Virus record (IMG/VR): IMGVR_UViG_3300013101_000042
Coordinates: 1 to 35,812 of that record
DNA from: a virus
Length of the DNA stretch: 35,812 bases
Strand: one strand, 5' to 3'
Numbering within the stretch: the first letter of the stretch is position 1; the number at the start of each line of letters is the position of its first letter. This document shows, piece after piece, positions 526 through 35,812 of this stretch. Position numbers and translations under genes: made by a program. Under the pieces are notes generated by a model, which did not search any database, was not told where the DNA came from, and saw only the letters and a list, made by a program, of their open reading frames with translations.

Positions 526-942
<417 letters not shown>

Positions 943-955
943 AATTTAATACTCG

Positions 956-1008
956 TTGTGTTGTGTATGTGAACGTGGTATCATAGCACACAATTTATCA
1001 CAACACAA
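956..1008. promoter_or_regulatory. Mirror-image overlapping promoters sharing one -10 box
   Basis: A perfect 10-bp inverted repeat, TTGTGTTGTG at 956-965 and CACAACACAA at 999-1008, is centred on base 982. Each arm holds a -35 box (TTGTGT at 956-961 on plus; TTGTGT on minus at 1003-1008). Each has a -10 box exactly 17 bp away: TATCAT at 979-984 on plus and TATGAT on minus at 980-985. The two -10 boxes are almost the same bases, so only one polymerase could occupy the site. The plus promoter would serve the RHH/HTH/primase genes and the minus promoter the Pro/Ala-rich, HNH and exonuclease genes. The dyad is a plausible operator for the adjacent RHH or HTH protein. Activity is inferred. Confidence 0.65.
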
Positions 1009-1021
1009 AGGGTTTATTCAA

Positions 1022-1186
1022 ATGGCTAAGAAAGATCACATTACAATGCGTGTCGATGGGGACATGCACGTTTATTTAAAGAAGATGGCTGCGCGGGAAA
1101 ATCGACCGCTATCTAATATGATTCACACGTTACTTCGCAAGGCGGTCAATCATGACAAAGCATTGTATAAGGGGGCCAGACAGTGA
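1022..1186 (+). CDS. Small ribbon-helix-helix (Arc/MetJ-like) DNA-binding protein
   Basis: The start chosen is the ATG at 1022 (MAKKDHITMRVDGDMHVYLKKMAARENRPLSNMIHTLLRKA), preceded by AAAGGG. An ATG further upstream lies inside the promoter. The 54-residue protein has a short beta strand (HITMRVD) followed by two helices with the RPLSNMIHTLLRKA pattern typical of ribbon-helix-helix repressors and antitoxins, which bind palindromic operators as dimers. It is the first gene after the symmetric promoter and overlaps the HTH gene by four bases, so autoregulation at the 956-1008 dyad is likely but unproven. No toxin partner is evident. Confidence 0.75.
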   Translation: MAKKDHITMRVDGDMHVYLKKMAARENRPLSNMIHTLLRKAVNHDKALYKGARQ

Positions 1187-1479
1187 AAACATTCAACGAA
1201 CAGCAAATGGGTGACCCTTGGACTTGGGCTTTGTCCGTACTGGTTAAACATCAGATCAAAAGTAAAGACTTGTCAGATCACATAGGCATGAACCGCTCGA
1301 CTGTCCGCAGCCTGATGAACCAGACTAGTGCCAACCCCAAATACGCCACACTCATTCAAATCCTGCAAGTCTGCATCCAGTTGGAGAACGGTGTGAATCT
1401 GGTTTCTCCTGTCGAGGAAGAAGTTGCGCCGAAGCAACTTTCTGAGCTTGAAGATGAACAAGAGTATGATTGGCTGTGA
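1183..1479 (+). CDS. HTH (Xre/Cro-like) transcriptional regulator
   Basis: The protein has 98 residues and starts at a GTG that overlaps the RHH stop codon (GTGA). Residues about 20-62 form a helix-turn-helix of the Cro/C1 type (IKSKDLSDHIGMNRSTVRSLMNQTSANPKYATLIQILQVC). The acidic C-terminus (ELEDEQEYDWL) is outside the domain. It is probably a phage regulator acting with the RHH protein on the divergent control region. A copy of the dispersed 20-bp hairpin lies inside the gene at 1421-1440 and is translated as EVAPKQL. Confidence 0.8.
   Translation: MKTFNEQQMGDPWTWALSVLVKHQIKSKDLSDHIGMNRSTVRSLMNQTSANPKYATLIQILQVCIQLENGVNLVSPVEEEVAPKQLSELEDEQEYDWL
1421..1440 (-). repeat. Dispersed AAGTTGC hairpin, copy 1 (intragenic, antisense)
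   Basis: AAGTTGC (1421-1427), six-base loop and GCAACTT (1434-1440) form a 7-bp stem. Read on the minus strand the loop is TTCGGC, one base from the usual TTCGAC. It lies inside the HTH gene and points against it. No clear T-run follows on the minus strand. Confidence 0.8.
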
Positions 1480-1512
1480 CGGGGGTATTGTGCTATGATA
1501 TATGACGCTCAT

Positions 1513-1543
1513 AAAAAAGGCCCGAAGTTTGAGCTTCGGGCCT
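1513..1543 (-). terminator. Minus-strand intrinsic terminator between the HTH and primase genes
   Basis: A 10-bp stem (AGGCCCGAAG at 1518-1527 with CTTCGGGCCT at 1534-1543) is followed on the minus strand by six T residues (A-run 1513-1518 on plus). On the plus strand no T-run follows, so it should stop leftward (antisense) transcription before it reaches the HTH/RHH genes. On the plus transcript it forms a hairpin in the primase leader. Confidence 0.7.
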
Positions 1544-1568
1544 CCTAACCAACTACAGAGGAATTACC

Positions 1569-4163
1569 ATGCTGGCAAGCACAAACCACACGATAACACA
1601 AAAACAATCCCTGAGCAACCTCAAATTTCTAACTGCCATCTTCGGTGAATACGCACTTGCTGCTCACGTTACCGGATTCATCGAGTCACCATCAGACTTA
1701 CCCAAGCTGGGACTCAATCACTACTGGGGAGGGAATGCTTGGTATAAAAGACCGCTCGAAAATCCAGACTTCAATAACTTCCTGACCATCAGTACATTCC
1801 ATGCAGCGGATGACGGTACGCACCGCAGACGCAAAGACCTGTTCGCTGCTGGCTTCGCTATGATGATAGATGACGTAGGCACTGGAACGGGCAGCAAGAT
1901 CGACCCGTTCATGCTGGGTAGTCTGATGGTAGAGTACCGACCCTCATGTATCATCGAGACCAGTCCTGACAACTACCAGTATTGGTACTTCTATGATGAG
2001 CCTGTTATGGATCGAGGTAAGATCGAGGCACTGCTTAAAGGCTTCGTCGCAAAAGGTCTGGTCGATGGAGGTGCTGATCCTGGAATGCTAGGTGTCACCC
2101 GCTATGGCAGGCTCCCTGTTGGCTCGAATACTAAGGCAGTGTATGGCGAACCCTTCCGGCATGTCGTGATAGAATGGGATCCTGACCGTCGATACAGCAT
2201 CGATACGCTGGCAGCTAACTTCGACATCAAACTTCAAGACTACTACCCTGACACTATCGAGGACTTCGGCACCGCTGTTTCTCCAGAGGATGATCCGGTC
2301 TACCAGTCACTCAAACGACTAGGCATGATCAAGGGTGTGAACCGCTCCGGTATCTATGATGTCATCTGCCCTTGGGTATCCCAGCATACTGAGCTGCTCG
2401 ATAACGGCTCTGCTTATCTGGCACCCATGGGTTACCGCTGTCACCACGGACATTGCGAATCGAAGACAGGCAGGGACTTGATGGGTTACCTGCATGGAAA
2501 AGACCCTATATACAAAGCTCACTGTGCGGCTCTCTTACCGTTTGAACCTGTAAGTGACCCTACCCCCTCGATTCAGGGAGTTAGTCCAGTAGCGAGTCAT
2601 CTGGAGGCTCTGGCACCCCTTGGTGAGATGATCACTGAGTTCGATATACAGTTCAATGCAATGCTCCAGCTCCTCGACCCTAACAACCCACTGTCAGCGG
2701 AGGGTATATACAGGCTGGTAGCTCAACACTATACCAAATTCAATCCGCTGGAGATTAACCTGTACACCAACCTGATCAAAGGCAAAATGAACTGCACGCT
2801 CAAGGTAGCACGCGATCAGATGAAACATGTACGTGCGGAGCTGTTGAGAGAACATCGCAAGAATGGTGTTCTCGATGAGCCAGCATGGAAAGACTTGGAA
2901 GGTGACAAGATCATCGGCACCCTCGATAACTTCCGAGCTGTATGTGAGTTCCACGGTATCACTCTCCGCTTCAACCAGATGAACCACTCGATAGATTGTG
3001 ACATTCCAGGAGAAGACTTCTCAAAGGATGACATCGACAATCTGAACCTCACTCACATGCGCGATGCAATCTCTCGCTACGGTATGAATCACATGCGAAC
3101 TGGTGAATGGATGAACAGCGTTGCATTCGAGAATGAGTTCCATCCGTTTCGTGACTACCTCGACAAGATCAGCGGACTAAAGATTGACCCTACCTGCCCC
3201 ACCTTCGCCAAACTATTCTCAACTCTGGACATCAACGTGTTCGGGGATGAGTCAGAGGTGTTTCTTCGCCGCTGGTTGATCTCGATAGTTGCCATGGTGC
3301 GCGGTCATGCAGGAGCTGGGGCAAAGGGTTGTCTGACATTGAGCGGTAAGCAGGGATGCGGTAAGACCAGTTGGTTCCGCAATCTGTTCGAGGAAGGTAT
3401 GTTTCAGGAGGGTATGGTACTTGATCCGCATAACAAAGACAGTATCATCCAAGCCACTAACGCACTGGTCACAGAGTTTGGTGAGCTAGACTCTACCTTC
3501 AAGCGAGACATCCCAGCTATCAAAGCATTCATGACCAATCAGTTTGACAAGGTGCGGCACCCATACGCAGCCAAGGTGTCATCGACTCCGCGCCGCACAG
3601 TGTTCTGTGCATCGGTCAATGCTCATGACTTTCTAGTCGATCCGACAGGCAATTCAAGATTTTGGGCGGTCTCTGTGAACAAGTGTAATTTCCTGGAAGT
3701 GGAGAACATGAGAGCTAGTGGTGAGATCGACATGCTGTGGGCCGAAATTCAAAGCATGTACTACGCTGCGATGGATGGGGTATCCGAGTTTAGATGGTGG
3801 ATTGGAATTGAGGATGGTGATCTGCTGGATCGAGTGTCTGAGGAATTCGTAAAACACACTGCCGGAGAGACCATGCTTCGAGAGTGCTTTGATATGGATG
3901 GGCCGCTGATAGAAGTTGTATCGACTCAGGAGATCATGACAACGTGCGGATTAATGACCAGCGATCACAACTACGGTGTGCGCAAGAATGAACTGATGTC
4001 AGCTATCAGACGCATCACAGGACAGCAGCGACAATCATCTCATCGTGTCGGCGGTGTAGTAGAGAAAGGTTACAAGATGCCGCGCCGATTGGGTGCTGGT
4101 GGCAAGGCTAGACTAACCGCTGTGTCGATGCCCTTCGAGGCTAGCGATTTTCCTTGGCTCTGA
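1569..4163 (+). CDS. Phage replication protein: RepB-like primase fused to VapE-type P-loop helicase
   Basis: The protein has 864 residues and starts at an ATG with AGAGGA upstream. The N-terminal third resembles RepB/archaeo-eukaryotic-type primases: MMIDDVGTG, IIETSPDNYQYWYFY and RYGRLPVGSNTK supply the acidic, serine/tyrosine and basic positions seen in such primases. The C-terminal third is a VapE (PF05272-like) P-loop ATPase with Walker A GKQGCGKT at residues 593-600. This is followed by VTEFGELD and the KVSSTPRRTVFCASVN...DPTGNSRFWAVSV stretch that defines the family. It is likely the replicative primase-helicase that opens the origin. A hairpin precedes it and a minus-strand terminator separates it from the convergent leftward genes. 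The helicase half is confident; the primase half is a family inference. Confidence 0.85.
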   Translation: MLASTNHTITQKQSLSNLKFLTAIFGEYALAAHVTGFIESPSDLPKLGLNHYWGGNAWYKRPLENPDFNNFLTISTFHAADDGTHRRRKDLFAAGFAMMIDDVGTGTGSKIDPFMLGSLMVEYRPSCIIETSPDNYQYWYFYDEPVMDRGKIEALLKGFVAKGLVDGGADPGMLGVTRYGRLPVGSNTKAVYGEPFRHVVIEWDPDRRYSIDTLAANFDIKLQDYYPDTIEDFGTAVSPEDDPVYQSLKRLGMIKGVNRSGIYDVICPWVSQHTELLDNGSAYLAPMGYRCHHGHCESKTGRDLMGYLHGKDPIYKAHCAALLPFEPVSDPTPSIQGVSPVASHLEALAPLGEMITEFDIQFNAMLQLLDPNNPLSAEGIYRLVAQHYTKFNPLEINLYTNLIKGKMNCTLKVARDQMKHVRAELLREHRKNGVLDEPAWKDLEGDKIIGTLDNFRAVCEFHGITLRFNQMNHSIDCDIPGEDFSKDDIDNLNLTHMRDAISRYGMNHMRTGEWMNSVAFENEFHPFRDYLDKISGLKIDPTCPTFAKLFSTLDINVFGDESEVFLRRWLISIVAMVRGHAGAGAKGCLTLSGKQGCGKTSWFRNLFEEGMFQEGMVLDPHNKDSIIQATNALVTEFGELDSTFKRDIPAIKAFMTNQFDKVRHPYAAKVSSTPRRTVFCASVNAHDFLVDPTGNSRFWAVSVNKCNFLEVENMRASGEIDMLWAEIQSMYYAAMDGVSEFRWWIGIEDGDLLDRVSEEFVKHTAGETMLRECFDMDGPLIEVVSTQEIMTTCGLMTSDHNYGVRKNELMSAIRRITGQQRQSSHRVGGVVEKGYKMPRRLGAGGKARLTAVSMPFEASDFPWL

Positions 4164-5637: not shown

Positions 5638-5865
5638 TCAAATCTCCGTTAAACCAGCTACTTTGGCAACTAAACCGCTGTAACTCTCCATGACACGATA
5701 AGCTACGCCATGGGTCATGTGGATTTCAACGTACTCCTTGCCATTGTGCTGCTGGACTTTTTTGAAGTGTAAAATCTGATCAGTGTTAATCATCACTTTA
5801 TCAGACCATCCACCAACGGTTTGAGACACCTCGATAAACTTAGGTGCTACTATTTTGTCGATCAT
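5638..5865 (-). CDS. Hypothetical early protein (75 aa)
   Basis: The sequence MIDKIVAPKFIEVSQTVGGWSDKVMINTDQILHFKKVQQHNGKEYVEIHMTHGVAYRVMESYSGLVAKV is predicted to be mostly beta strand with a short C-terminal helix. The stretch INTDQILHF...VEIHMTHG...VMESY loosely recalls small FlbD-like beta proteins, but I would not assign that family. It starts with ATG after the standard leader (GAGGAAAATATTATG) and is preceded by a complete leader module at 5866-5934. Confidence 0.65.
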   Translation of the reverse strand: MIDKIVAPKFIEVSQTVGGWSDKVMINTDQILHFKKVQQHNGKEYVEIHMTHGVAYRVMESYSGLVAKVAGLTEI

Positions 5866-5934
5866 AATATTTTCCTCTGTGCAGTACGAAATTGTACTAG
5901 TCTGGATATCCGAAGATAACCAGAATGCTACAAT
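5866..5934 (-). promoter_or_regulatory. Early leader module, copy M2
   Basis: It begins directly after the TAA of the 50-residue gene. On the minus strand: AAATTGTA, then stem P2 TCTGGTTATC-TTCG-GATATCCAGA (one mismatch, C-UUCG-G loop, 5901-5924), then CTAG, hairpin P3 AGTAC-AATTTC-GTACT, GAGGAAAATATTATG. The leading AAATTGTA is fully complementary to TACAATTT inside P3, so P1 and P3 are alternatives or a pseudoknot. Confidence 0.8.
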
Positions 5935-6087
5935 TTACCAGTTTTTATAGTATCCAGTTTTCACTCTCAATGACTGTAGTTTAATTTCAAGCATCTGTAT
6001 TTTGCTTGCCTGTTGAATATGGCTGTATACTAATACACCTGTTGTCAAAACCCAGCCAAACATCACCATACCAAAATCAATATCCAT
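5935..6087 (-). CDS. Small single-pass membrane protein (50 aa)
   Basis: The protein is MDIDFGMVMFGWVLTTGVLVYSHIQQ followed by a helical tail (ASKIQMLEIKLQSLRVKTGYYKNW): one hydrophobic segment at about residues 5-21 and then a coiled-coil-like region. The start codon overlaps the stop of the 128-residue gene (TAATG), giving translational coupling. The stop codon directly abuts the repeated leader module M2, the same position as stop codons of clear genes in the array. This context supports a real gene despite its size. It could be a small inner-membrane effector; function unknown. Confidence 0.65.
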   Translation of the reverse strand: MDIDFGMVMFGWVLTTGVLVYSHIQQASKIQMLEIKLQSLRVKTGYYKNW

Positions 6088-6473
6088 TACATGTAATCCT
6101 CAAAATAGGCTTCGACTATTGGGAAAGACTCTGCGGTTTCATTCAAGTGATTACGGGCAGTACCGTACACCTCGTCACCCCTATCCCAAAACCCAGTACC
6201 GTGACCATTGCGGGTAAGCCAAAAATCATGTCCTGCCTGTGCGATGGTGCCTTCCTCGCTGTTGAGATAACAGCAAATCCTGCTATAAAAACACAGGCAA
6301 TCCAGCGTCGATTCGCGGATAAAATCCTCATCCAATTCCGCATCCGCTGGTGGCTGATCTCCATCGACATCACCGCCTCCAGTTTCTGTGAAATAAATCG
6401 CTGCAACATAGGCGTTCAAAAACTCAATTTCATCCTCAGTCAATTCGACATTTAATGGTGTTGTAAAATTCAT
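6087..6473 (-). CDS. Conserved phage protein with AGHDFWLTRNGHG motif (128 aa)
   Basis: The C-terminal half carries AQAGHDFWLTRNGHGTGFWDRGDEVYGTARNHLNETAESFP, a pattern I recall from small proteins widespread in phages and mobile elements. The N-terminal half is acidic (ELTEDEIEFLNAYVAAIYFTETGGGDVDGDQPPADAELDEDF). The molecular role is not known. It starts at ATG after GAGAATATTATT and is preceded by module M3. It is coupled to the 50-residue membrane protein downstream through a TAATG overlap. Confidence 0.7.
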   Translation of the reverse strand: MNFTTPLNVELTEDEIEFLNAYVAAIYFTETGGGDVDGDQPPADAELDEDFIRESTLDCLCFYSRICCYLNSEEGTIAQAGHDFWLTRNGHGTGFWDRGDEVYGTARNHLNETAESFPIVEAYFEDYM

Positions 6474-6547
6474 AATAATATTCTCTTGTGGTAGTGCGAA
6501 ATTGCACTAGCTAGAATCCAGGTATAGTAGATTCTAGGTGCTGCAAT
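6474..6547 (-). promoter_or_regulatory. Early leader module, copy M3
   Basis: On the minus strand: AAATTGCA, then stem P2 CTAGAATC/GATTCTAG (8 bp, 6511-6537), then CTAG, hairpin AGTGC-AATTTC-GCACT, and GAGAATATTATT before ATG. AAATTGCA pairs perfectly with TGCAATTT, a compensatory C-G for T-A change relative to M2. It abuts the stop of the 35-residue gene. Confidence 0.8.
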
Positions 6548-6655
6548 TTAACCGATGTAATGCCAGATTGATCCGTAGACGCTGTTGAAAACCATAAAGA
6601 ACAATGTAGCGGTTAATACTCCATTGATGTACCAAAGTGATAGCAGGGTTTTCAT
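6548..6655 (-). CDS. Small membrane protein (35 aa)
   Basis: The product MKTLLSLWYINGVLTATLFFMVFNSVYGSIWHYIG is almost entirely hydrophobic with one basic residue near the start, as expected of a single transmembrane helix. Its ATG overlaps the stop codon of the 105-residue gene (ATGA) and its TAA stop directly precedes module M3. Both features match its neighbours and support translation. No family is recognised. Confidence 0.6.
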   Translation of the reverse strand: MKTLLSLWYINGVLTATLFFMVFNSVYGSIWHYIG

Positions 6656-6969
6656 AGCTGGTCTCCATTCTGTAAAGCTACCAGTGACCGCCTAACTATC
6701 TCCATAGCTGCGTTATCGATAAACCATTCCTGTACGCTGCCTTCTAACAGTATGCCTGCCTCACCTTCGAGCAGGGTTTTCAGGTAGTATCTGCTGATGA
6801 ATTGACCGTGTTTATCATGCTTATAACGTGCATCATAAAACTCGATCAGTATCTCTCCAGACTCGTTTCTCAGACAATCGTCTAAGCCATAGTTAGCGTC
6901 AGGCAGGATAGCCACAACATTGAATGGCGTACCTTTATCGTTTACTACTGATGTGATTAACTTTCCCAT
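6652..6969 (-). CDS. Hypothetical early protein (105 aa)
   Basis: The protein is MGKLITSVVNDKGTPFNVVAILPDANYGLDDCLRNESGEILIEFYDARYKHDKHGQFISRYYLKTLLEGEAG..., probably an alpha/beta fold with strands in the middle. The GQFISRYYLKTLL stretch resembles small conserved phage proteins, but I cannot assign a function. It starts at ATG behind GAGGAATATTATT with module M4 upstream and is coupled by ATGA to the 35-residue membrane protein. Confidence 0.7.
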   Translation of the reverse strand: MGKLITSVVNDKGTPFNVVAILPDANYGLDDCLRNESGEILIEFYDARYKHDKHGQFISRYYLKTLLEGEAGILLEGSVQEWFIDNAAMEIVRRSLVALQNGDQL

Positions 6970-7040
6970 AATAATATTCCTCTGTGATTGTGCGAAATTG
7001 CACTAGTCTGATATCCGAATAGATACCAGAATGGTGTAAT
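6970..7040 (-). promoter_or_regulatory. Early leader module, copy M4
   Basis: On the minus strand: AAATTACACCATT, then P2 TCTGGTATC/GATATCAGA (9 bp with one G-U, 7007-7030), CTAG, hairpin GTGC-AATTTC-GCAC and GAGGAATATTATT. It follows the TAA of the 139-residue gene without a gap. Confidence 0.8.
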
Positions 7041-7460
7041 TTAACTGTTTGGAAATTTCAGCTTTTCGAGTATGTCTTTGCCAATTTCAACAGCGTTATC
7101 GATCATATCATTAGCAGCTTCTGTGAGATAGCTATTGTCACTATCAGGGTAATTACACTCGATACGCCATAAGCTATCTGTGTGGTCATCCAGCATGATA
7201 CCATTGCGAGACACTGACATAACTATACCGCAATAAAACCAGTTGCATAGTTCCCATTCCCTTCGAGCCTTTAACAATTTAGCTTGTTGTTTATCATTAC
7301 ATCCTGTCACCGATTGATCGATATTGTGACAATCATCGTCATCAATATGCGATTCTGAATCATGTCGCAATGTCGCGGTAACTGTGAACCCCTCAACGTC
7401 AACACTGATAGTGTCGTTATCTACAGCGTACTTGTTAAATTTTCCTGTAAATGTAGTCAT
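7041..7460 (-). CDS. Conserved hypothetical phage protein (139 aa)
   Basis: The start chosen is the ATG at 7460 (MTTFTGKFNKYAVDNDTISVDVEG) because it sits at the standard GAGGAAAATATTATG leader; a longer frame would run back into the module. The middle (DDDDCHNIDQSVTGCNDKQQAKLLKARREWELCNWFYCGIVMSVSRNGIMLDDHTDSLWRIECNYPDSDNSYLTEAANDM) is dense in Asp, Cys and Trp and looks like a conserved small phage family. No enzymatic motif is clear. It is part of the early array, with module M4 downstream and M5 upstream. Confidence 0.7.
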   Translation of the reverse strand: MTTFTGKFNKYAVDNDTISVDVEGFTVTATLRHDSESHIDDDDCHNIDQSVTGCNDKQQAKLLKARREWELCNWFYCGIVMSVSRNGIMLDDHTDSLWRIECNYPDSDNSYLTEAANDMIDNAVEIGKDILEKLKFPNS

Positions 7461-7534
7461 AATATTTTCCTCTGTGTAGTACGAAATTGTACTAGCCAAA
7501 AACCAGGATTAGTGGTTTCTGGATGGTTCAATTT
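7461..7534 (-). promoter_or_regulatory. Early leader module, copy M5
   Basis: On the minus strand: AAATTGAACCAT, then P2 CCAGAAACCA/TGGTTTTTGG (10 bp, one G-U, 7496-7522), CTAG, hairpin AGTAC-AATTTC-GTACT and GAGGAAAATATTATG. The P2 sequence is unrelated to M2-M4 yet still pairs. Confidence 0.8.
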
Positions 7535-8176
7535 CTAATCTTCTACTGGTGCGAATAGTTCATCATACATATCTGTTTTTATAACCAGCGATGCAAAATC
7601 GCTAGACATATCGATGTAAACCATTTCACTATCTTTATGGACGTAAACCGCATTGATAGAGTCAAGCACGTACTCATAAAATTGTGCTTGCACCTCCTTA
7701 TCGCTGTAGATAGCTGGAACAAAATCTGTGATCCATTCCATCGATTCCTCGATTTCACCGATACTTCCACCAGCCACACTGATACCTCGTGATGCTGAAT
7801 AGTTGCTGGTGATATCTACCTCGCAGTAGTAATCAAGCATACACTCAAGTCTATCTTCAACTACCTGAATATCAAGGTCGATATCATTGTCATCCATGTA
7901 GTTTTTGATCTGATCCATATCGATACCCATATCATACAGAAAATCGAAATAATCAGACTCAGGATTGTAGTAAGTATCCCTAATGTATGCGGTCAATTTC
8001 TCATCGATTTCATCAGCAAAATGTTGCGCGGTATCGCCAATAATAGCGTCGATGGTATTCTCATCGTCATTGCTATTTTCCGCTTCGTACGCTTCAAGAA
8101 TGGTGATTGCTAAACTGTTGTTTTGACACTCAGCATCCCGCACTAATTCATCGATAGATTTGTTTGAATTTAACAT
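7535..8176 (-). CDS. Highly acidic early protein (213 aa), possible DNA mimic
   Basis: The protein is very rich in Asp and Glu along most of its length (for example DELVRDAECQNN, NSNDDENTIDAIIGD, ESDYFDFLYDMGIDMDQIKNYMDDNDIDLDIQVVEDRLE) with few basic residues. Early phage proteins of such composition include DNA mimics that inhibit restriction enzymes or other DNA-binding host proteins; here that is an inference from charge alone. No conserved domain is recognised. It starts at ATG with GGAGAAATATT upstream and lies between modules M5 and M6. Confidence 0.7.
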   Translation of the reverse strand: MLNSNKSIDELVRDAECQNNSLAITILEAYEAENSNDDENTIDAIIGDTAQHFADEIDEKLTAYIRDTYYNPESDYFDFLYDMGIDMDQIKNYMDDNDIDLDIQVVEDRLECMLDYYCEVDITSNYSASRGISVAGGSIGEIEESMEWITDFVPAIYSDKEVQAQFYEYVLDSINAVYVHKDSEMVYIDMSSDFASLVIKTDMYDELFAPVED

Positions 8177-8248: not shown

Positions 8249-8509
8249 CTATTTAATTTGCTTACGCGAAATTAGCTCGTATTGATACCGTGAATCGTCT
8301 ATCGGATGATTGAAAATTTCGACTCCTGTATAGCAAATCAATCCGCTGGTAGTTGAAAAATCAGTAGTGTGTGTATATGGCCTATGGAATGAAATTAACC
8401 CGCCTTTGATCTGGTACACTGTAAGCACACCGATTTGATGGTTGCTAGCGTCCAGCACTCTATCACCTAATTTTAATTTACTGCCAGCTAATAGTTTTGA
8501 AGTAGACAT
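8249..8509 (-). CDS. Hypothetical early protein (86 aa)
   Basis: The start chosen is the ATG at 8509 (MSTSKLLAGSKLKLGDRVLDASNHQIGVLTVYQIKGG) because it follows the standard GAGGAAAATATTATG leader; a longer frame reads through the leader module and is not credible. LKLGDRVLDASNHQIGVLTVYQI suggests a small beta-barrel fold. No family is recognised. It lies between modules M6 and M7. Confidence 0.65.
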   Translation of the reverse strand: MSTSKLLAGSKLKLGDRVLDASNHQIGVLTVYQIKGGLISFHRPYTHTTDFSTTSGLICYTGVEIFNHPIDDSRYQYELISRKQIK

Positions 8510-8589
8510 AATATTTTCCTCTGTGATTGTATCGAAATTGATACTAGTTAACCGCCAATTACTAGCGGTTAAATGGTTCCAATTTACAG
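8510..8589 (-). promoter_or_regulatory. Early leader module, copy M7
   Basis: On the minus strand: AAATTGGAACCATT, then P2 TTAACCGC/GCGGTTAA (8 bp, 8548-8572), CTAG, hairpin GTATC-AATTTC-GATAC and GAGGAAAATATTATG. Both P2 and P3 have new, still self-complementary sequences, so P3 too shows compensatory change (GTATC/GATAC against GTGC/GCAC). Confidence 0.8.
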
Positions 8590-8820
8590 TTACTTCGCTA
8601 TCTGCCATTCATCAAGATTATGCTCTGTTAAATACAGGTAAACGTATAGACCATGTTTGAGAGGAACCTTGACCTTTTCAGGGCTGCGTTTCCAGGTTTT
8701 TGGCTTACCATTCACTCGCACTCTCGATGGTGTACCATCCCTATTTTCAGAGATTTTGTGGTGTAAGATAGTGCCAGTTTTCAGAGTTTTTGCTTCTGAT
8801 AATGTGATTGCTTTAAACAT
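8590..8820 (-). CDS. Conserved hypothetical phage protein (76 aa)
   Basis: The start chosen is the ATG at 8820 at the standard leader. The sequence MFKAITLSEAKTLKTGTILHHKISENRDGTPSRVRVNGKPKTWKRSPEKVKVPLKHGLYVYLYLTEHNLDEW has a core (GTILHH...DGTPSRVRVNGKPKTWKRSPE) that I recall from small conserved phage proteins, strongly basic in the middle. The role is unknown. It is preceded by module M8, which carries an additional hairpin. Confidence 0.7.
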   Translation of the reverse strand: MFKAITLSEAKTLKTGTILHHKISENRDGTPSRVRVNGKPKTWKRSPEKVKVPLKHGLYVYLYLTEHNLDEWQIAK

Positions 8821-9692: not shown

Positions 9693-9944
9693 TTAACATT
9701 GTAACATTGTAAAATCTTTCTTATCCAGTACGCCGGCTTTTACCAGTTTGCCGTCTAAAAACATATTGAACACGGTCAGCCCATCATCGTCAGTATACCG
9801 CTCAACGCTGATTGTGGCTAGCTCATGCGAATTACTAGAGCTAGTGCCTACTCTGATTTCTTGCCTAAATCCATCGCTGCCGAATGAGCAATCGCTTTTT
9901 CGTTTTGGATTTGAAATGATGTTATAGATAGGTGATGATTTCAT
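9693..9944 (-). CDS. Hypothetical early protein (83 aa), first clear gene of the array
   Basis: The product MKSSPIYNIISNPKRKSDCSFGSDGFRQEIRVGTSSSNSHELATISVERYTDDDGLTVFNMFLDGKLVKAGVLDKKDF looks mainly beta-stranded. No family is recognised. It starts at ATG with GAGAATATTATT and has module M11 upstream. It is the gene nearest the non-coding region, so an early leftward promoter is expected to its right, but I could not identify convincing -35/-10 boxes there. Confidence 0.65.
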   Translation of the reverse strand: MKSSPIYNIISNPKRKSDCSFGSDGFRQEIRVGTSSSNSHELATISVERYTDDDGLTVFNMFLDGKLVKAGVLDKKDFTMLQC

Positions 9945-10010: not shown

Positions 10011-10128
10011 GCTGGTCATTTCGACCGCCACTATTGACGGTCGCTGATTCACAAAAGAAGAATATATTATTTAGCTAGTGTTGTAAGGTTTACAGTTTCT
10101 TTCGATCTCAATGGGGCTGCTACCTCTG

Positions 10129-10293: not shown

Positions 10294-10406
10294 GGGAATC
10301 AATATAGCGCCTAGTTTGCGGATAACAAGTTTTATTTTGCATTTGTCGCATATTGAATAGTAATCCGCTGTTTATGTCGCATTTACGACAGCCTATTCAT
10401 CACTGT

Positions 10407-10430
10407 GTGTAGAATCGGTAACGCTGATAG
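10407..10430 (+). repeat. 24-bp inverted repeat, left arm
   Basis: The 24 bases here are the exact reverse complement of 10714-10737. The core ATCGGTAAC (10414-10422) also occurs at 10612-10620 and 10767-10775, and inverted at 10722-10730. It is a candidate binding site for a phage initiator or regulator. Confidence 0.85.
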
Positions 10431-10713
10431 AGAGGTTATCACTATTGCTATATAAGTAACAGGCATTATGAATTCTCACTGTCAGGTTTCTATGTCATTG
10501 AATTTAAAGGAATGTTACGTTGTTACTCTTTTTACCTGATATTTTGAAGGCATTGTGTATTTTTTACTAGTGTGATTTTATTTCAATATGGTCAGTAGAA
10601 TACCGGACTAAATCGGTAACAATGGTTACATTTCGTGTAGCCTCAATATCATGCGGTCAAATCCAGACTCTGAGCGTTATTGTATACGTTTTGGGTATGA
10701 GCTAGCGAGTAGG

Positions 10714-10737
10714 CTATCAGCGTTACCGATTCTACAC
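10714..10737 (-). repeat. 24-bp inverted repeat, right arm
   Basis: This is the exact reverse complement of 10407-10430. It contains GTTACCGAT (10722-10730), begins with CTATCA, which is the core of the iterons downstream, and is followed by TTGATAG. The repeat thus joins both sequence motifs of the region. Confidence 0.85.
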
Positions 10738-10782
10738 TTGATAGCCCAGTAATCACTACCTTGATAATCGGTAACACTAACA

Positions 10783-10902
10783 CTCAGACTATCAAGAATA
10801 ACAACACTCAGACTATCAGGCATTGAGGCTATCATGATACTGAGGCTATCATGGCATTGAGGCTATCATGGCATTGAGGCTATCATGGCATTGAGGCTAT
10901 CA
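10783..10902 (+). repeat. Iteron array, GAGGCTATCA at 17-bp spacing
   Basis: Five GAGGCTATCA cores start at 10825, 10842, 10859, 10876 and 10893, exactly 17 bp apart, mostly as ATTGAGGCTATCATGGC units. Two related CAGACTATCA cores precede at 10785 and 10809, and a further GACTATCA lies near 10924. Even spacing suggests co-operative protein binding. Confidence 0.85.
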
Positions 10903-11171
10903 ACACTAGTGCGGATGAATAGCAGACTATCAGGCACCCAGCAGTAGCCACCAAATCCAGGAAAACAATGTACCCGCACACGGGAGCGTTATTGTATGCG
11001 CGAGAAGCGACCCCCACCCCCCGAAAGCGCCGAATCGATCTTACTATTACCACCCACAGTGTTGCAAAATTCAAAAATGAAAAAAAAATCTGACAGTTGT
11101 AGTGTCACCCAAGAACGCAGAAACGCAGACACACTGACACCCTCACTACCATATCTCAAAAAATCGAATCC

Positions 11172-11200
11172 TTGACAACAGAAGCACATGCGGTTACTAT
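11172..11200 (+). promoter_or_regulatory. Sigma70 promoter for the late/packaging operon
   Basis: A consensus -35 TTGACA (11172-11177), 17-bp spacer and -10 TACTAT (11195-11200) lie just before the small terminase gene. The predicted start of transcription (about 11206-11208) falls on the ATG at 11208, so the mRNA would have almost no leader. Confidence 0.7.
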
Positions 11201-11207
11201 CGCGCAC

Positions 11208-11798
11208 ATGAGCAATGTAATCGACCACCCCAGCAGCGTTAATGCGCGGACAGATCGCGACAAGGCGCGGGAGAACCTAGCCCGACAGCTACGCACTAAT
11301 CAGATGATGCGTGAGTCGGCGCGGGAGCGAATAAATGCTAGCCAGATCATTGACCAGATAGGTGAGATCGAGGCGCAGCTCATGGGGAGTTACACCGAAG
11401 GGACGAAAGAACACATCGACACCGCCACTGGGGAGATAACCAAGGTCACCGTGCAAACACCGATCCCAATGGAGAGGGAGATCATACAGGCGCTCAAGAT
11501 AAGAGCGGATATCAAGTTCAGGCTGCTGGGGAAGGTGCTGCCTGACCTCAAGGCTACTGAGTCGATCAGTCATAATGTGCATGATCATCAGCACGCGCAC
11601 CTTCACGCGCCTGTGTCATCCGTTGAGATGGCTACGCGGATACAGCTATGGCAGAAGCAGATCAAGACGCAGAAGCAGGAGGTTAAGGTGATCAACGAGA
11701 TACCCGCGACTACGCTGATGCTAGCGTCACTGGAGCATAAGCCTGCTGGGGAAAGTTGCGTCGAAGCAACTTTTGAGAGGGAGTACGACTGGGAATGA
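11208..11798 (+). CDS. Terminase small subunit
   Basis: The start used is the ATG at 11208 (MSNVIDHPSSVNARTDRDKARENLARQLRTNQMM); an upstream TTG at 11172 is inside the promoter. The 196-residue protein has a helical N-terminus and the stretch REIIQALKIRADIKFRLLGKVLPDLKATE, which is typical of small terminase subunits that recognise phage DNA for packaging, and a His-rich segment (HNVHDHQHAHLHAP). It is followed by two tiny genes and the large terminase, the usual order. It ends with a copy of the dispersed hairpin translated as SCVEAT. Identity is inferred from pattern and position. Confidence 0.7.
   Translation: MSNVIDHPSSVNARTDRDKARENLARQLRTNQMMRESARERINASQIIDQIGEIEAQLMGSYTEGTKEHIDTATGEITKVTVQTPIPMEREIIQALKIRADIKFRLLGKVLPDLKATESISHNVHDHQHAHLHAPVSSVEMATRIQLWQKQIKTQKQEVKVINEIPATTLMLASLEHKPAGESCVEATFEREYDWE
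11753..11772 (-). repeat. Dispersed AAGTTGC hairpin, copy 3 (intragenic, antisense)
   Basis: AAGTTGC (11753-11759), loop, GCAACTT (11766-11772). The canonical TTCGAC loop reads on the minus strand. It is translated in a different frame (SCVEAT) from the copies at 1421 and 28366 (VAPKQ, VASKQ), so the DNA sequence, not the peptide, is what recurs. Confidence 0.85.
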
Positions 11799-11968: not shown

Positions 11969-12093
11969 GCAACAAGGGCGGAGGGGGAGGCATCAAGGCG
12001 AAAGGGGTAAACCAGCCATGGTTCAATAACAACGTAGCCAAGCGTCGAAAGGCGCGGAAGGTAGAGGCGAGAGCGAGGAAGAAGAATCGATGA
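11965..12093 (+). CDS. Very basic 42-residue protein before the large terminase
   Basis: The product is MSNKGGGGGIKAKGVNQPWFNNNVAKRRKARKVEARARKKNR: a Gly tract followed by an Arg/Lys-rich tail. The stop codon overlaps the terminase ATG (ATGA), and the start overlaps the preceding stop. It may bind DNA or RNA during packaging, but this is only an inference from charge. Confidence 0.55.
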   Translation: MSNKGGGGGIKAKGVNQPWFNNNVAKRRKARKVEARARKKNR

Positions 12094-13727
12094 GCTACGA
12101 CGATGACCTTAGCTTCCTCGACGGTCTATCGAGTGACATGCCTGACTTTGAACACATGTCGTTCGAGGACACGGTAAACTTTGTCGAAGCACTGTCCGAT
12201 GCCGAGAAGCGGAACATGCTGGAGAGCATGAAAGACAAGCAACCCAGTCTGCTACCACTTCCAGGTCCTCAGACGATGGCGTGTGAATCGGAAGCCGACC
12301 TGACGTTATATGGCGGAGCCGCTGGTGGTGGTAAGACCTTCCTAGCCATCCTGTTAGCCCTGACACGCCATATACGCACGCTCATGATACGTAAGGAAGC
12401 TAGCCAGCTCTATGCTGTGCAGGATGAGATTGAAGGTCTGCTAGGCAGCAGGGATGGCTTCAACAGCCAAAACGGGATATGGAGACTACCAAACAATGAG
12501 ATCACTGACCCCTATGGTGAAAAGCCTTCACGACAGATACGCTTCGGTGGACTTAACAAACCTGGAGACGCAGCTAAGTATCAAGGTGCGCCTCGTGACT
12601 TACTGATCGTGGATGAGGCAGCTAACATCACCTTCGAGGAGTTTGTATTCCTTACCGTATGGGAGCGTACAGCCATCATAGGGCAACGAACGCGCACCAT
12701 CCTATGCTCTAACCCCCCTACGGATGCAACGGGCATGTGGATGGTCAGGCTATTCGCCCCATGGCTCGATCCTGAGAATGACAACCCTGCTAAGGACGGA
12801 GAGATACGCTGGTTCATCACTGTGGGTGACGACGACATCGAGGTAGCAAACGGAGAAGAAGTTGAGATCGACGGGCAGTTCTACTCGCCCCAGTCTCGTA
12901 CCTTCATATCAGCCAAGGTCGATGATAACCCACACATGATCGCGTCAGGGTACAAGCGGAAGCTACAGCGGTTGCCTACCTACCTACGTGACCGGATGCT
13001 ACACGGACACTTCCTATCCAGCCTTGAAGACGATGAGATGCAAGTCATACCGACCGACTGGGTAGAGGCTGCGGTACAACGCTGGAATGAAAGCCCCGAC
13101 ATGTCTGATCGCCGCATGACCGCGCTAGGTGTTGACCCAGCGAGAGGTGGAGCGGATGAAATGGTCATGTCACCCATACATGGAAATTGGTTTGCACCCT
13201 TAGTCAAGATTCCAGGTATAGACGTACCTACTGGGCCTTTGGGTGCAGCAGAGGTTGTGAAGGCGCGGAGAGATGCTGCCCCGATCAAACTCGATGCTAT
13301 CGGCGTAGGCACTAGTGTATATGACAAGCTGATGGAGAATGAAGTTGACGTTGAGCCTATGATCGGAAATGAGGCTACCGACGAGATAAGCAAAGACGGT
13401 CTGTTCCACTTCAAGAACAAACGTGCGCTATGGTATTGGCGAATGCGGGAGGCACTCGACCCCGAGAGTGGTAACAAGATATGCCTGCCACCCGACAAGA
13501 AGATGAAAGCTGACCTGTGCGTATTCACGTACAAAATACTCGAAGGTAACATCATACAGGTTGAATCCAAGCCACTAGCCAAGAAGCGGATAGGTCGATC
13601 TCCTGATGCGGGAGACAGTGTGATATATGGTAATAGTGGCTCTAAGATGCTGTCAGACTTGCGTAGAGGCTCGAAAAGGTTTAAAGTAATAACGACATCA
13701 TCCTACCGACAGAGACAAATGCAATGA
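12090..13727 (+). CDS. terL: Terminase large subunit (ATPase/nuclease)
   Basis: The 545-residue protein pumps phage DNA into proheads and cuts it. The ATPase has Walker A GGAAGGGKT at residues 75-83, Walker B LLIVDEA at 171-177 and a coupling motif SNPP at 207-210. The nuclease domain starts around residue 345 (ALGVDPARGGADEM, catalytic Asp349) and continues through DAIGVGTSVYDKL, as in RNase H-fold terminase nucleases. The length is usual for podovirus terminases. It overlaps genes on both sides by four bases. Confidence 0.95.
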   Translation: MSYDDDLSFLDGLSSDMPDFEHMSFEDTVNFVEALSDAEKRNMLESMKDKQPSLLPLPGPQTMACESEADLTLYGGAAGGGKTFLAILLALTRHIRTLMIRKEASQLYAVQDEIEGLLGSRDGFNSQNGIWRLPNNEITDPYGEKPSRQIRFGGLNKPGDAAKYQGAPRDLLIVDEAANITFEEFVFLTVWERTAIIGQRTRTILCSNPPTDATGMWMVRLFAPWLDPENDNPAKDGEIRWFITVGDDDIEVANGEEVEIDGQFYSPQSRTFISAKVDDNPHMIASGYKRKLQRLPTYLRDRMLHGHFLSSLEDDEMQVIPTDWVEAAVQRWNESPDMSDRRMTALGVDPARGGADEMVMSPIHGNWFAPLVKIPGIDVPTGPLGAAEVVKARRDAAPIKLDAIGVGTSVYDKLMENEVDVEPMIGNEATDEISKDGLFHFKNKRALWYWRMREALDPESGNKICLPPDKKMKADLCVFTYKILEGNIIQVESKPLAKKRIGRSPDAGDSVIYGNSGSKMLSDLRRGSKRFKVITTSSYRQRQMQ

Positions 13728-13999: not shown

Positions 14000-14190
14000 G
14001 CGGCGGCGATCCGTGGAAGCATCGTAGTAAGGGCATGTGCTGTGCAACGTGTATGTGGTATGTCGAAAAGGGAAAGTCGAAAAACAACTTTGGGAGATGC
14101 CGGAGACACTCCCCTTCCATGTCAGGCTATCCGGCTGTATTCGGTAATGACTGGTGCGGTGATCACAAACTTGACGAGACAAAACTATGA
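13996..14190 (+). CDS. Small Cys-rich zinc-ribbon-like protein (64 aa)
   Basis: The product MSGGDPWKHRSKGMCCATCMWYVEKGKSKNNFGRCRRHSPSMSGYPAVFGNDWCGDHKLDETKL has a C-x2-C knuckle (CATC) and two further cysteines in GRCRRHSP and DWCGDHK, consistent with one zinc site. Similar small proteins with a GYP...DWCG ending recur in phage head operons. It overlaps the portal start codon by four bases. A structural or regulatory role is unknown. Confidence 0.7.
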   Translation: MSGGDPWKHRSKGMCCATCMWYVEKGKSKNNFGRCRRHSPSMSGYPAVFGNDWCGDHKLDETKL

Positions 14191-15836
14191 AACTGCAAGA
14201 AATTAAATCGAGGTTTGATGCCTTATGGGGAATTCGCAAAACTCCAGAACAGACATGGGACTTGATCGAGAAGTACATAAGTCCGATCAGGGGCGGGAAG
14301 TTCTTTCAGGATCAATCGAGCGAACACGAGATCGATTGGCGTCGAGGCCGCGATGTGTTCGACTCGACTGCCGTACTCGCGGCAAATACCTTAGCGTCCT
14401 CTGTTCACGGTGCATTGACGAATCCATCGAGCAAATGGTTTGAGTTGCGATTCAGAGAGACCGCACTTAACGACGATGACTCAGCGAAAGAGTGGATACA
14501 AGCCTGTACCATGGCTATATGGCACGCACTGCAAGAGTCAGACTTCAACCTACAGATCAACGAAGCCTACATCGATCTCGTAGCGTTTGGAACGTCCTGT
14601 GTCGTAGAGGAAGCGGAGAGTGAAATCTCATGGCAAGGGTTGAACTTCTCAACACTGCCTATCCGCGAAGTCTACTTCGAGCAAAATCACAAGGGAGGCA
14701 TTCTCAACTTCTACCGACGATACGAGTGGAATCCACTTCAAATCCTCGACAAGTTTGGTGAGGATGGCACACCCGATTTAATCAAGGAGAGAGCAAAGCA
14801 ACCCTCTCAGGCTGATACAAAGTATCGTGTCATCATGTGTATCTATCCGCGCAAGAACGGAAAGATGGATACCAGCAAACCAATTCAACCGAAGAACCGA
14901 CCCTTCGGTGTGAAGTATGTCTTACATGAGACATGTGAGATGCTGGGTGAGGAAGGGGGTTATTACGAGATGCCATCATTCATCGCACGTTGGCAGAAAG
15001 CCAGTGGTTCCGCTTGGGGCTTCGGTCCTGGAACCATGTGTCTCAGCGATGTGATGACACTCAACACAATGGTAGAGCAGCGGTTGTCCTCTGCTGCGAA
15101 AGTCATCGATCCCCCTGCACTGGTTACTGAGCGAGGCATGTTATCCGATCTCGATCTCAGACCTGGAGGACAGAGTGTGGTACGTGACATCAAGGGTGTC
15201 GCACCCTACGAGTCAGCAGCACGCTTCGATGTGGCCGACCATCTGATCACAGGGTATCAAGAACAGATCAATAAAATGTTCCTTGTGGATCGGCTCGAAC
15301 TGAAAGAGTCACCAGCCATGACAGCGACCGAAGTGAATGCGCGGTTTGATCTCATGCAGCGGTTGCTTGGGCCAGTCTTCGGTCGTTTGCAAACTGACCT
15401 GTTAGACCCGCTAATCGAGCGAACCTTTAGCATTCTGTTACGTGGCGGTCAGTTTCCACCTATGCCGGAAATCCTAGCGAACCATGAAGGTGACTTTGAT
15501 GTTGACTACGTTGGGCCGATGGCGAGAGCGCAGAAGTCTGACGAGATTGGCATGATCAATCAGTGGCTTGGAATGATGGCAGAGATGGGTCAGGTATTTC
15601 CTGAGATGGCAATACTACCTGATCCTGCTGCTGCTGGACGAGAACTTGCGAAAGTGATGAACGTACCAGCAACTGTTGTTCGATCCAAGGATGAAGTGGA
15701 CGAGATAGTCAAGAAGAAGGAGCAGGAAGCCTTGCAAACCAAACAGCTAGAGATGGCTATGGCTGGAGCAGAAGGTGCGAAGAATCTCGGAGCGGGTGCC
15801 AAGAACATGGCAGACGCTGGGATGTCAGTACAATAA
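14187..15836 (+). CDS. Portal (head-to-tail connecting) protein
   Basis: The 549-residue protein fits the podovirus head-tail connector family (PF12236-like, T7 gp8 functional equivalent). Supporting segments are the start (FDALWGIRKTPEQTWDLIEKYISPIRGGKFF), SVHGALTNPSSKWFELRFR, GPGTMCLSDVMTLNTMVEQRL and SPAMTATEVNARFDLMQRLLGPVFGRLQTDLLDPLIERTF. It forms the dodecameric ring through which DNA enters and leaves the head. The C-terminus is Ala/Gly-rich and helical. It lies between terminase and scaffold, as expected. Confidence 0.9.
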   Translation: MKLQEIKSRFDALWGIRKTPEQTWDLIEKYISPIRGGKFFQDQSSEHEIDWRRGRDVFDSTAVLAANTLASSVHGALTNPSSKWFELRFRETALNDDDSAKEWIQACTMAIWHALQESDFNLQINEAYIDLVAFGTSCVVEEAESEISWQGLNFSTLPIREVYFEQNHKGGILNFYRRYEWNPLQILDKFGEDGTPDLIKERAKQPSQADTKYRVIMCIYPRKNGKMDTSKPIQPKNRPFGVKYVLHETCEMLGEEGGYYEMPSFIARWQKASGSAWGFGPGTMCLSDVMTLNTMVEQRLSSAAKVIDPPALVTERGMLSDLDLRPGGQSVVRDIKGVAPYESAARFDVADHLITGYQEQINKMFLVDRLELKESPAMTATEVNARFDLMQRLLGPVFGRLQTDLLDPLIERTFSILLRGGQFPPMPEILANHEGDFDVDYVGPMARAQKSDEIGMINQWLGMMAEMGQVFPEMAILPDPAAAGRELAKVMNVPATVVRSKDEVDEIVKKKEQEALQTKQLEMAMAGAEGAKNLGAGAKNMADAGMSVQ

Positions 15837-17531: not shown

Positions 17532-18407
17532 GTGGCTACCGATATCGATAAAGTCTACATCTCAACATTCGAGCGCATACTGCGCCATCTCGCCCAACAG
17601 GGCATCACCCGCTTACGTCAATACGTTACTGAACGGTCAACCAATGGTACAGACCACGGTTGGGAACGATTGACTGCTTCAACGTCAACCCCGAAAGCTG
17701 CTGGTCTGGTAGCTACCCCGTCAACTGGTGGTACGTACTCCAGACGACTGTCTGTTGCTGCAACCGAACATGCAGGCGACAGCACCCAGCACGAAGACAT
17801 CGTTCAGATGCTCATCGACCCCAACAGTAATCAGGCAATGTCTCTTGCCATGGCGATTCGTCGCGCATGGGATGACAAGATCATCGCTGCTGCCACTGGT
17901 GATGCGACTGACGGTGACGGGGTAGCTGTTGTATACGATACTGCGAATCAGCAGATCGTTGCTGCCAGTCAGATCACTTTCGATCTGGTCACTCAGGTTC
18001 AAGAGAAGTTCCTGGAAAACGACATCGAACTCGATACCGAAAAGGTTTTCGTTGTTGGGCCGAAGCAGATTCGCAAGCTGATGCAGCTTACGGAACAAAC
18101 CAGTGCTGACTACGTGGCTCGTGAGATGCTACAGAAGCTGTCTACCACTGGCATCTGTGCAAACTGGATGGGCTTCACATGGGTAATGTCTACCCGCCTT
18201 AACGTCACCGCTGGTACGCCTGATACGATTGACTGTATCGCGTTCACCAAACGTGGACTGGGTATGCAGATGAACCGCGACATGCTGGTTCGTGTTGCAG
18301 AAGACCCAAGTCAATCTTTCGCATGGCGCATCTACTGCGCTACCACATTCGGTGTGGTTCGTGTGGAAGACGAGCATGTTGTCTGGTTGCAGGTAGAAAA
18401 CACCTAA
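17532..18407 (+). CDS. Major capsid protein
   Basis: The 291-residue product starts at GTG (read as MATDIDKVYISTFERILRHLAQQGITRLRQYV) after GGAGGATAG. It has an HK97-like composition, with the E-loop-like segment rich in Thr/Gly (STNGTDHGWERLTASTSTPKAAGLVATPSTGGTYSRRL) and the motif IRRAWDDKIIAAATG...VVYDT found in phage capsid proteins of the T7-like/BPP-1-like podovirus type. It lies after scaffold and before tail genes, with its own strong promoter and terminator, as expected of the most abundant virion protein. Confidence 0.85.
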   Translation: MATDIDKVYISTFERILRHLAQQGITRLRQYVTERSTNGTDHGWERLTASTSTPKAAGLVATPSTGGTYSRRLSVAATEHAGDSTQHEDIVQMLIDPNSNQAMSLAMAIRRAWDDKIIAAATGDATDGDGVAVVYDTANQQIVAASQITFDLVTQVQEKFLENDIELDTEKVFVVGPKQIRKLMQLTEQTSADYVAREMLQKLSTTGICANWMGFTWVMSTRLNVTAGTPDTIDCIAFTKRGLGMQMNRDMLVRVAEDPSQSFAWRIYCATTFGVVRVEDEHVVWLQVENT

Positions 18408-18447
18408 GACCCCTGATGGGGAAAGTTGCTTCGACGCAACTTTCCCC
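18408..18447 (+). terminator. Dispersed AAGTTGC hairpin, copy 5: extended terminator after the capsid gene
   Basis: The standard stem is extended to 12 bp by GGGGA (18418-18422) pairing with TCCCC (18443-18447) around loop TTCGAC, followed by ATTTTC-type T-rich sequence. CCCC at about 18410-18413 can also pair with the same GGGG, so a small competing hairpin exists upstream. Confidence 0.85.
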
Positions 18448-18483
18448 ATTTTCATTTTCATTATTTAAATTGGAGAACTTCAA

Positions 18484-35644: not shown

Positions 35645-35811
35645 TACATTCCCCATTGTGTAGCCATTGCGATTGCAAGGCCAGTTTTAGTTCTCGCTCG
35701 ATCCATCCAGCGAGTCTCCGATGGTGCCATGTAGAAAGCTGCTTCTCTTTCACACCTTGGCAACTTCATCATCTCGTAGTATACATAGTCTGTTGCTTTG
35801 AGTGGCGGCAG
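35644..35811 (-). CDS. C-terminal part of an unidentified protein (partial)
   Basis: An open frame enters from the right edge and reads LPPLKATDYVYYEMMKLPRCEREAAFYMAPSETRWMDRARTKTGLAIAMATQWGM, stopping in TAATG that overlaps the VRR-NUC start. The N-terminus lies outside the window. I do not recognise the protein. Coupling to the nuclease shows that it belongs to the same leftward operon. Confidence 0.6.
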   Translation of the reverse strand: MPPLKATDYVYYEMMKLPRCEREAAFYMAPSETRWMDRARTKTGLAIAMATQWGM

Positions 35812-35812
35812 A

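Follow-up and report, generated by a model that had tools for sequence, protein, structure and literature searches.

Genome context

The window, by which is meant the whole stretch of DNA analysed, is a linear virus record of 35,812 bases from a tailed phage. To the right of the intergenic region considered here are a gene in the terS position (11208..11798, + strand), TerL (12090-13727), which is distantly similar to that of Bordetella phage BPP-1, the portal gene (14187-15836) and a gene in the major-capsid position (17532-18407) that is strongly conserved in relatives. A 34-bp hairpin follows the major capsid gene (18416-18449) and shares a 27-bp stretch with the 3′ end of terS (11747-11773), as an inverted repeat; similar hairpins occur at the end of terS in the related contig L016 and behind the capsid gene in the related contig L004. 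A single operon (956-4163) encodes a ribbon-helix-helix (RHH, Arc-like) protein (956..1186, +), a Cro/C1-type HTH protein (1183..1479, +) and a RepB-primase/VapE primase-helicase (1569..4163, +).

The closest relatives of this phage are a few uncultured contigs. No close relatives of its clade were found in the phage record collection searched, nor were HTH or TerS relatives found in phage records; with the patterns used, the bacterial/archaeal genome collection gave no TerL or MCP relatives and no prophage relatives were found. In L016 the genes for a 599-aa protein (weak DNA_pol_B_exo2 match), an Enc34-type ssDNA-binding protein and a DUF2800 protein sit between a VRR-NUC gene and a homologue of window 526-942. 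The window contig is probably incomplete at its ends, by several kb, since none of these three genes was seen in it (ends 35656-35812 and 1-38).

Repeats in the intergenic region

The iteron unit is a 17-bp dyad, TGATA-N7-TATCA, whose left half decays to TGGCA in the tandem array. In that array (10818..10902, +) five iterons with the core GAGGCTATCA follow one another at exact 17-bp steps, with starts at 10825, 10842, 10859, 10876 and 10893, which bears out the initial annotation of at least five such iterons; TRF reports it (period 17, 5.4 copies, score 152) as the top-scoring array in the window. A PWM was built from ten window copies and a score of 15 was taken as the threshold for a good site. 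By this measure the intergenic region contains about ten iterons and the rest of the contig a single one, which lies outside 10400-11200, at 25993 (score 17.8). Copies on the + strand additional to the array lie at 10425..10441 (TGATAGAGAGGTTATCA), at 10703..10719 (partial, score 17.7), at 10778-10794 and 10802-10818, and at 10916..10932. On the reverse strand a dyad directly 3′ of an A-tract (TGACAGTTGTAGTGTCA, 11091..11107) matches the unit weakly, and a further weak dyad is found at 11135-11151; both of these fall outside the interval 10407-10902 that was first annotated.

Dyads of 17 bp are typical of Cro/C1 dimers, and it is possible, if unlikely, that these sites simply form an operator array for the Cro/C1-type HTH or the Arc-like RHH protein, controlling the divergent leftward genes and the terS promoter with no origin being present. 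Such an array would fit with the two proteins being encoded together, with the position of the region between divergent units and with the presence of conserved dyads upstream of a near-consensus terS promoter. However, at least ten sites over 500-700 bp, in close-packed tandem, are beyond the usual need of an operator, no strong PWM site is found at the start of the RHH-HTH operon, and the AT-rich segment and C-rich block described below would be left unexplained.

The region also contains a perfect 24-bp inverted repeat, with its left arm (GTGTAGAATCGGTAACGCTGATAG) at 10407..10430 (+) and its right arm at 10714..10737 (-); the arms are 100% complementary, with 283 nt between them. This is far beyond chance: when the window was shuffled 40 times (first-order Markov), perfect inverted repeats within 1 kb reached 15 bp at most. 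The box ATCGGTAAC occurs four times in the window, always in this region (10414, 10612 and 10767 on the + strand and 10722 on the - strand); the boxes outside the arms have the form AATCGGTAAC (10611..10620 and 10766..10775, both +), the first being followed by an inverted GGTTAC. The repeat and the four boxes are thus as initially described, and the claim that arms and iterons share the core CTATCA/TGATAG holds as well. Two of the iteron copies (10425-10441 and 10703-10719) overlap the inner ends of the left and right arm respectively, and it appears from this that the arms and the iterons are parts of a single system.

The matching regions of relatives showed neither the 24-bp repeat in its exact form nor the ATCGGTAAC boxes, and searches with the arm pattern (21 bp) or with an iteron-plus-TGTAGA pattern gave no relatives besides L004. 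A 16-mer, GGCTATCAAGTGTAGA, is common to the window and L004, and in the window it lies at the outer edge of the right arm. Perfect inverted repeats 283 bp apart that are not found in relatives could be the ends of a 331-bp mobile element or the recombination sites of an invertible switch. This we consider highly improbable: the proteins scanned yielded no recombinase or transposase, the sequence shows no target-site duplication, and the arms hold iteron half-sites and boxes that also occur outside them.

The AT-rich segment of the initial annotation is present at 10489..10588 (74% AT); it is the 100-bp stretch with the lowest stability in the intergenic region and a candidate unwinding element. 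Multiple direct repeats in non-coding DNA thus adjoin an AT-rich segment, as in iteron-type origins.

Conservation of the region in relatives

Four intergenic regions, all from metagenome contigs, were compared: that of the window and those of three independent uncultured relatives, L004 (the same contig as L001, L021 and L023), L007/L016 and L034. L004 has the exact window unit. Its PWM hits, TGACATTGAGAATATCA at 613, TGATATTGAGGCTATCA at 746 and TGACATTGAGGCTATCA at 1090, lie upstream of terS in the matching intergenic region and are the only hits of 15 or above in 18 kb; they score 19.9-26.4, where the maximum in 200 shuffles was 19.6. In L007/L016 the unit differs and is TGATGTGATGAACATATCA (N9), with five copies when up to 2 mismatches are allowed, and in L034 TGAYR-N6-YRTCA is found at 393, 670, 724 and 846. 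With the pattern TGAYR-N(6-9)-YRTCA, which was defined after the sequences had been seen, the strict dyads number 3 in the window (N7), 5 in L004 (N7), 3 in L007 (N9) and 4 in L034 (N6), as compared to an expectation of 0.02-0.07 per region. Clusters of these dyads are confined to this region in all four loci, being absent from the rest of the four loci and from the other contigs and phage stretches scanned, and they were found only in contigs with this type of terS. A separate search with a two-iteron pattern returned five contigs, none of which has protein similarity to the window.

In each of the four loci the 100-bp stretch of lowest stability is found at the leftmost iterons or between them (10489 in the window, 604 in L004, 8741 in L007 and 519 in L034), a comparison that was made post hoc and for which, over 40 bp, other stretches are equally unstable. 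IHF consensus matches are present in L004, L007 and L034, with none in the window, and there is no perfect DnaA box in the region. A 22-bp stretch, TCACAAAAGAAGAATATATTAT (window 10049-10070), lies about 105 bp from the first leftward gene and is kept in L004 (21/22) at a similar distance from the leftward gene; it could belong to a leftward promoter or leader.

Between the iterons and terS a C-rich block is followed, in all four loci, by an A-tract and then by a dyad or a site resembling one. In the window the C-rich block, ACCCCCACCCCCCG, is at 11010..11023 (+) and is a candidate cos or structural element; it is conserved in L004, L002, L007 and L034. The conserved A-tract follows at 11066..11088 (+). 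The dyad after the A-tract is reversed relative to the left group in L004, L002 and L034, and is a weak match to the unit in L007 and the window. A near-consensus sigma-70 promoter, TTGACA-N17-TACTAT (11172..11200, +), has a -10 element that ends 7 nt before the terS ATG, and a TTGACA/TTGACT-N17 promoter whose -10 ends 6-10 nt before this ATG is found in five of five cases (window, L004, L002, L007 and L034). This short distance suggests that the terS mRNA may be leaderless or nearly so. On this comparison, the layout of the region is kept in the relatives although most of the DNA letters have changed, and the conserved unit extends to about 11200, beyond the end at 10902 first given.

The product of the gene in the terS position is a rival candidate for binding of the sites. 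Were the region to serve in packaging, cos cleavage would take place at the C-rich block, with terminase bound to the dyads on either side. In all relatives covering it, the C-rich block, A-tract and dyad lie at a similar distance upstream of terS, and the dyad clusters are restricted to contigs with this terS type. Furthermore, the L002 contig ends (its position 1) at the conserved C-rich block, and this could possibly be a physical genome end (cos), although the support is weak as the other contigs, the window included, run through the block. Like lambda cos (cosQ-cosN-cosB), the region has repeated sites near a GC-rich putative cut site beside the small terminase gene; unlike it, the array reaches 600 bp from the block and includes an AT-rich segment between its sites, for which a cos has no need. 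Searches of the terS product against Pfam and PHROGs also revealed no DNA-binding domain. A role in packaging is doubtful.

Candidate binding proteins

The HTH protein (1183-1479), a candidate binder of the dyads, matches HTH_26 at 21.4 bits, just below the cut-off of 22, and has a homologue in L016; the RHH protein is a further candidate. The candidate initiator is the primase-helicase, which has RepB_primase and VapE domains (Pfam VapE 2e-44) and matches 7pds, ‘Similar to D. nodosus vapE’, at 3e-17. By these matches it is a predicted VapE/D5-like helicase, homologous to the staphylococcal-island VapE/Rep (7pds). Its VapE helicase relatives in cultured phages have around 30% identity over less than half of the protein. 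A model of the full-length protein was unusable (mean pLDDT 32.8), and the C-terminal part was refolded alone; for these 119 residues (746-864) the prediction is a winged helix whose core has pLDDT 75-86. Most of the top structural matches to this model are winged helices (Z up to 5.9), and Foldseek gave no significant match with it. The initial annotation placed the primase-helicase gene nearby; at 1569-4163 it is in fact about 6 kb from the region and not adjacent to it, and there are no iterons beside the gene itself.

An acidic-aromatic C-terminal tail was found on the HTH, VapE and TerS proteins of the window and relatives, and on the ssDNA-binding and DUF2800 proteins of L016 (tail sequences EYDWL, DFPWL, EYDWE, IDFL, HFDFL, DYDFM, EYDFI and TYDFL). 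The genes concerned are 1183-1479, 1569-4163 and 11208-11798 in the window, 5825-6544, 6545-7828, 8478-8771 and 9406-11949 in L016, 1532-2068 in L004 and 919-1392 in L034. It has the look of a shared docking tail of the kind borne by SSB or T7 gp2.5. Since this peptide is common to replication proteins and TerS, it adds a little to a wider proposal, which we nevertheless think improbable: that replication start, terS expression and packaging all converge on the dyad as a shared hub, with sites flanking both the AT-rich segment and the C-rich cut site, and that the replication proteins and TerS share a docking peptide by which the replisome would hand DNA to the terminase.

Discussion

On balance, we believe that the region is probably an iteron replication origin for a VapE-type initiator. 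It had been proposed to be an origin or a master control region, and of these the origin is best supported, by the iterons, the AT-rich element, the VapE-type protein and the layout in three relatives. The 24-bp repeat and ATCGGTAAC boxes on which that proposal also drew were not found in the relatives; what has been kept is the dyads, the C-rich block, the A-tract and the terS promoter. GC skew, which had been suggested as a check, gives no support for an origin. The cumulative minimum is at 9881, but fourfold sites are without a strand signal, so that this minimum, which follows gene orientation, reflects gene orientation and coding content, and it was rejected as evidence of an origin.

We infer a sequence of events in which a phage initiator would bind the 17-bp dyad iterons and melt the adjoining AT-rich stretch, where the VapE-type primase-helicase would be loaded and would prime. 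We think that the initiator is the VapE protein itself, which would read the iterons through its predicted C-terminal winged helix like the staphylococcal-island Rep helicases; our second choice is a helper role, like that of lambda O, for the Cro-like protein of the same operon. The 24-bp repeat would set extended sites face to face across the AT-rich segment, an arrangement that would suit two oppositely loaded helicases.

The iterons of the staphylococcal pathogenicity island (SaPI) origin, and those of the putative SCCmec origin, are read by the C-terminal domain of the respective helicase, Rep or Cch2 (PMC7581432). The window shares with these systems iterons and, by homology to 7pds, a VapE/D5-like helicase, a type that is self-loading in SaPI Rep-type origins. 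It differs from them in that its iterons are 17-bp dyads and its protein fuses a RepB-type primase to the helicase. Further, the SaPI origin is just downstream of rep whereas the window iterons are some 6 kb from the helicase gene, and this distance counts against an origin, as does the lack of a comparable array in the intergenic stretches that were examined in two of the distant cultured phages with a VapE relative.

A further point against an origin for VapE is that dyad iterons suit a dimer better than a hexamer. Lambda O is a dimeric initiator on several iterons beside an AT-rich tract (PMC7466680), and the iterons of lambda and lambdoid origins are of similar length to those of the window and likewise lie beside an AT-rich tract. 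As the dyad form suits a dimer, as with lambda O, the Cro-like protein is a serious alternative binder, either as an initiator helper or as a plain repressor. The lambda origin lies inside gene O and its helicase is that of the host, whereas the window region is non-coding and the primase-helicase is phage-encoded; no O homologue was found. RK2 oriV is a plasmid iteron origin with 17-bp iterons. Origins of this type have 17-bp direct repeats with AT-rich and GC-rich segments, as does the window; in contrast, the window region lacks a perfect DnaA box and the proteins scanned gave no plasmid-type Rep.

If the origin reading is true, it would provide a located origin for a phage clade without close relatives in the phage record collection searched. 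The layout has been kept while the half-site spacing (N6, N7 and N9) and sequence vary, and these phages would then offer a natural series for the study of co-change between VapE-type initiators and their sites.
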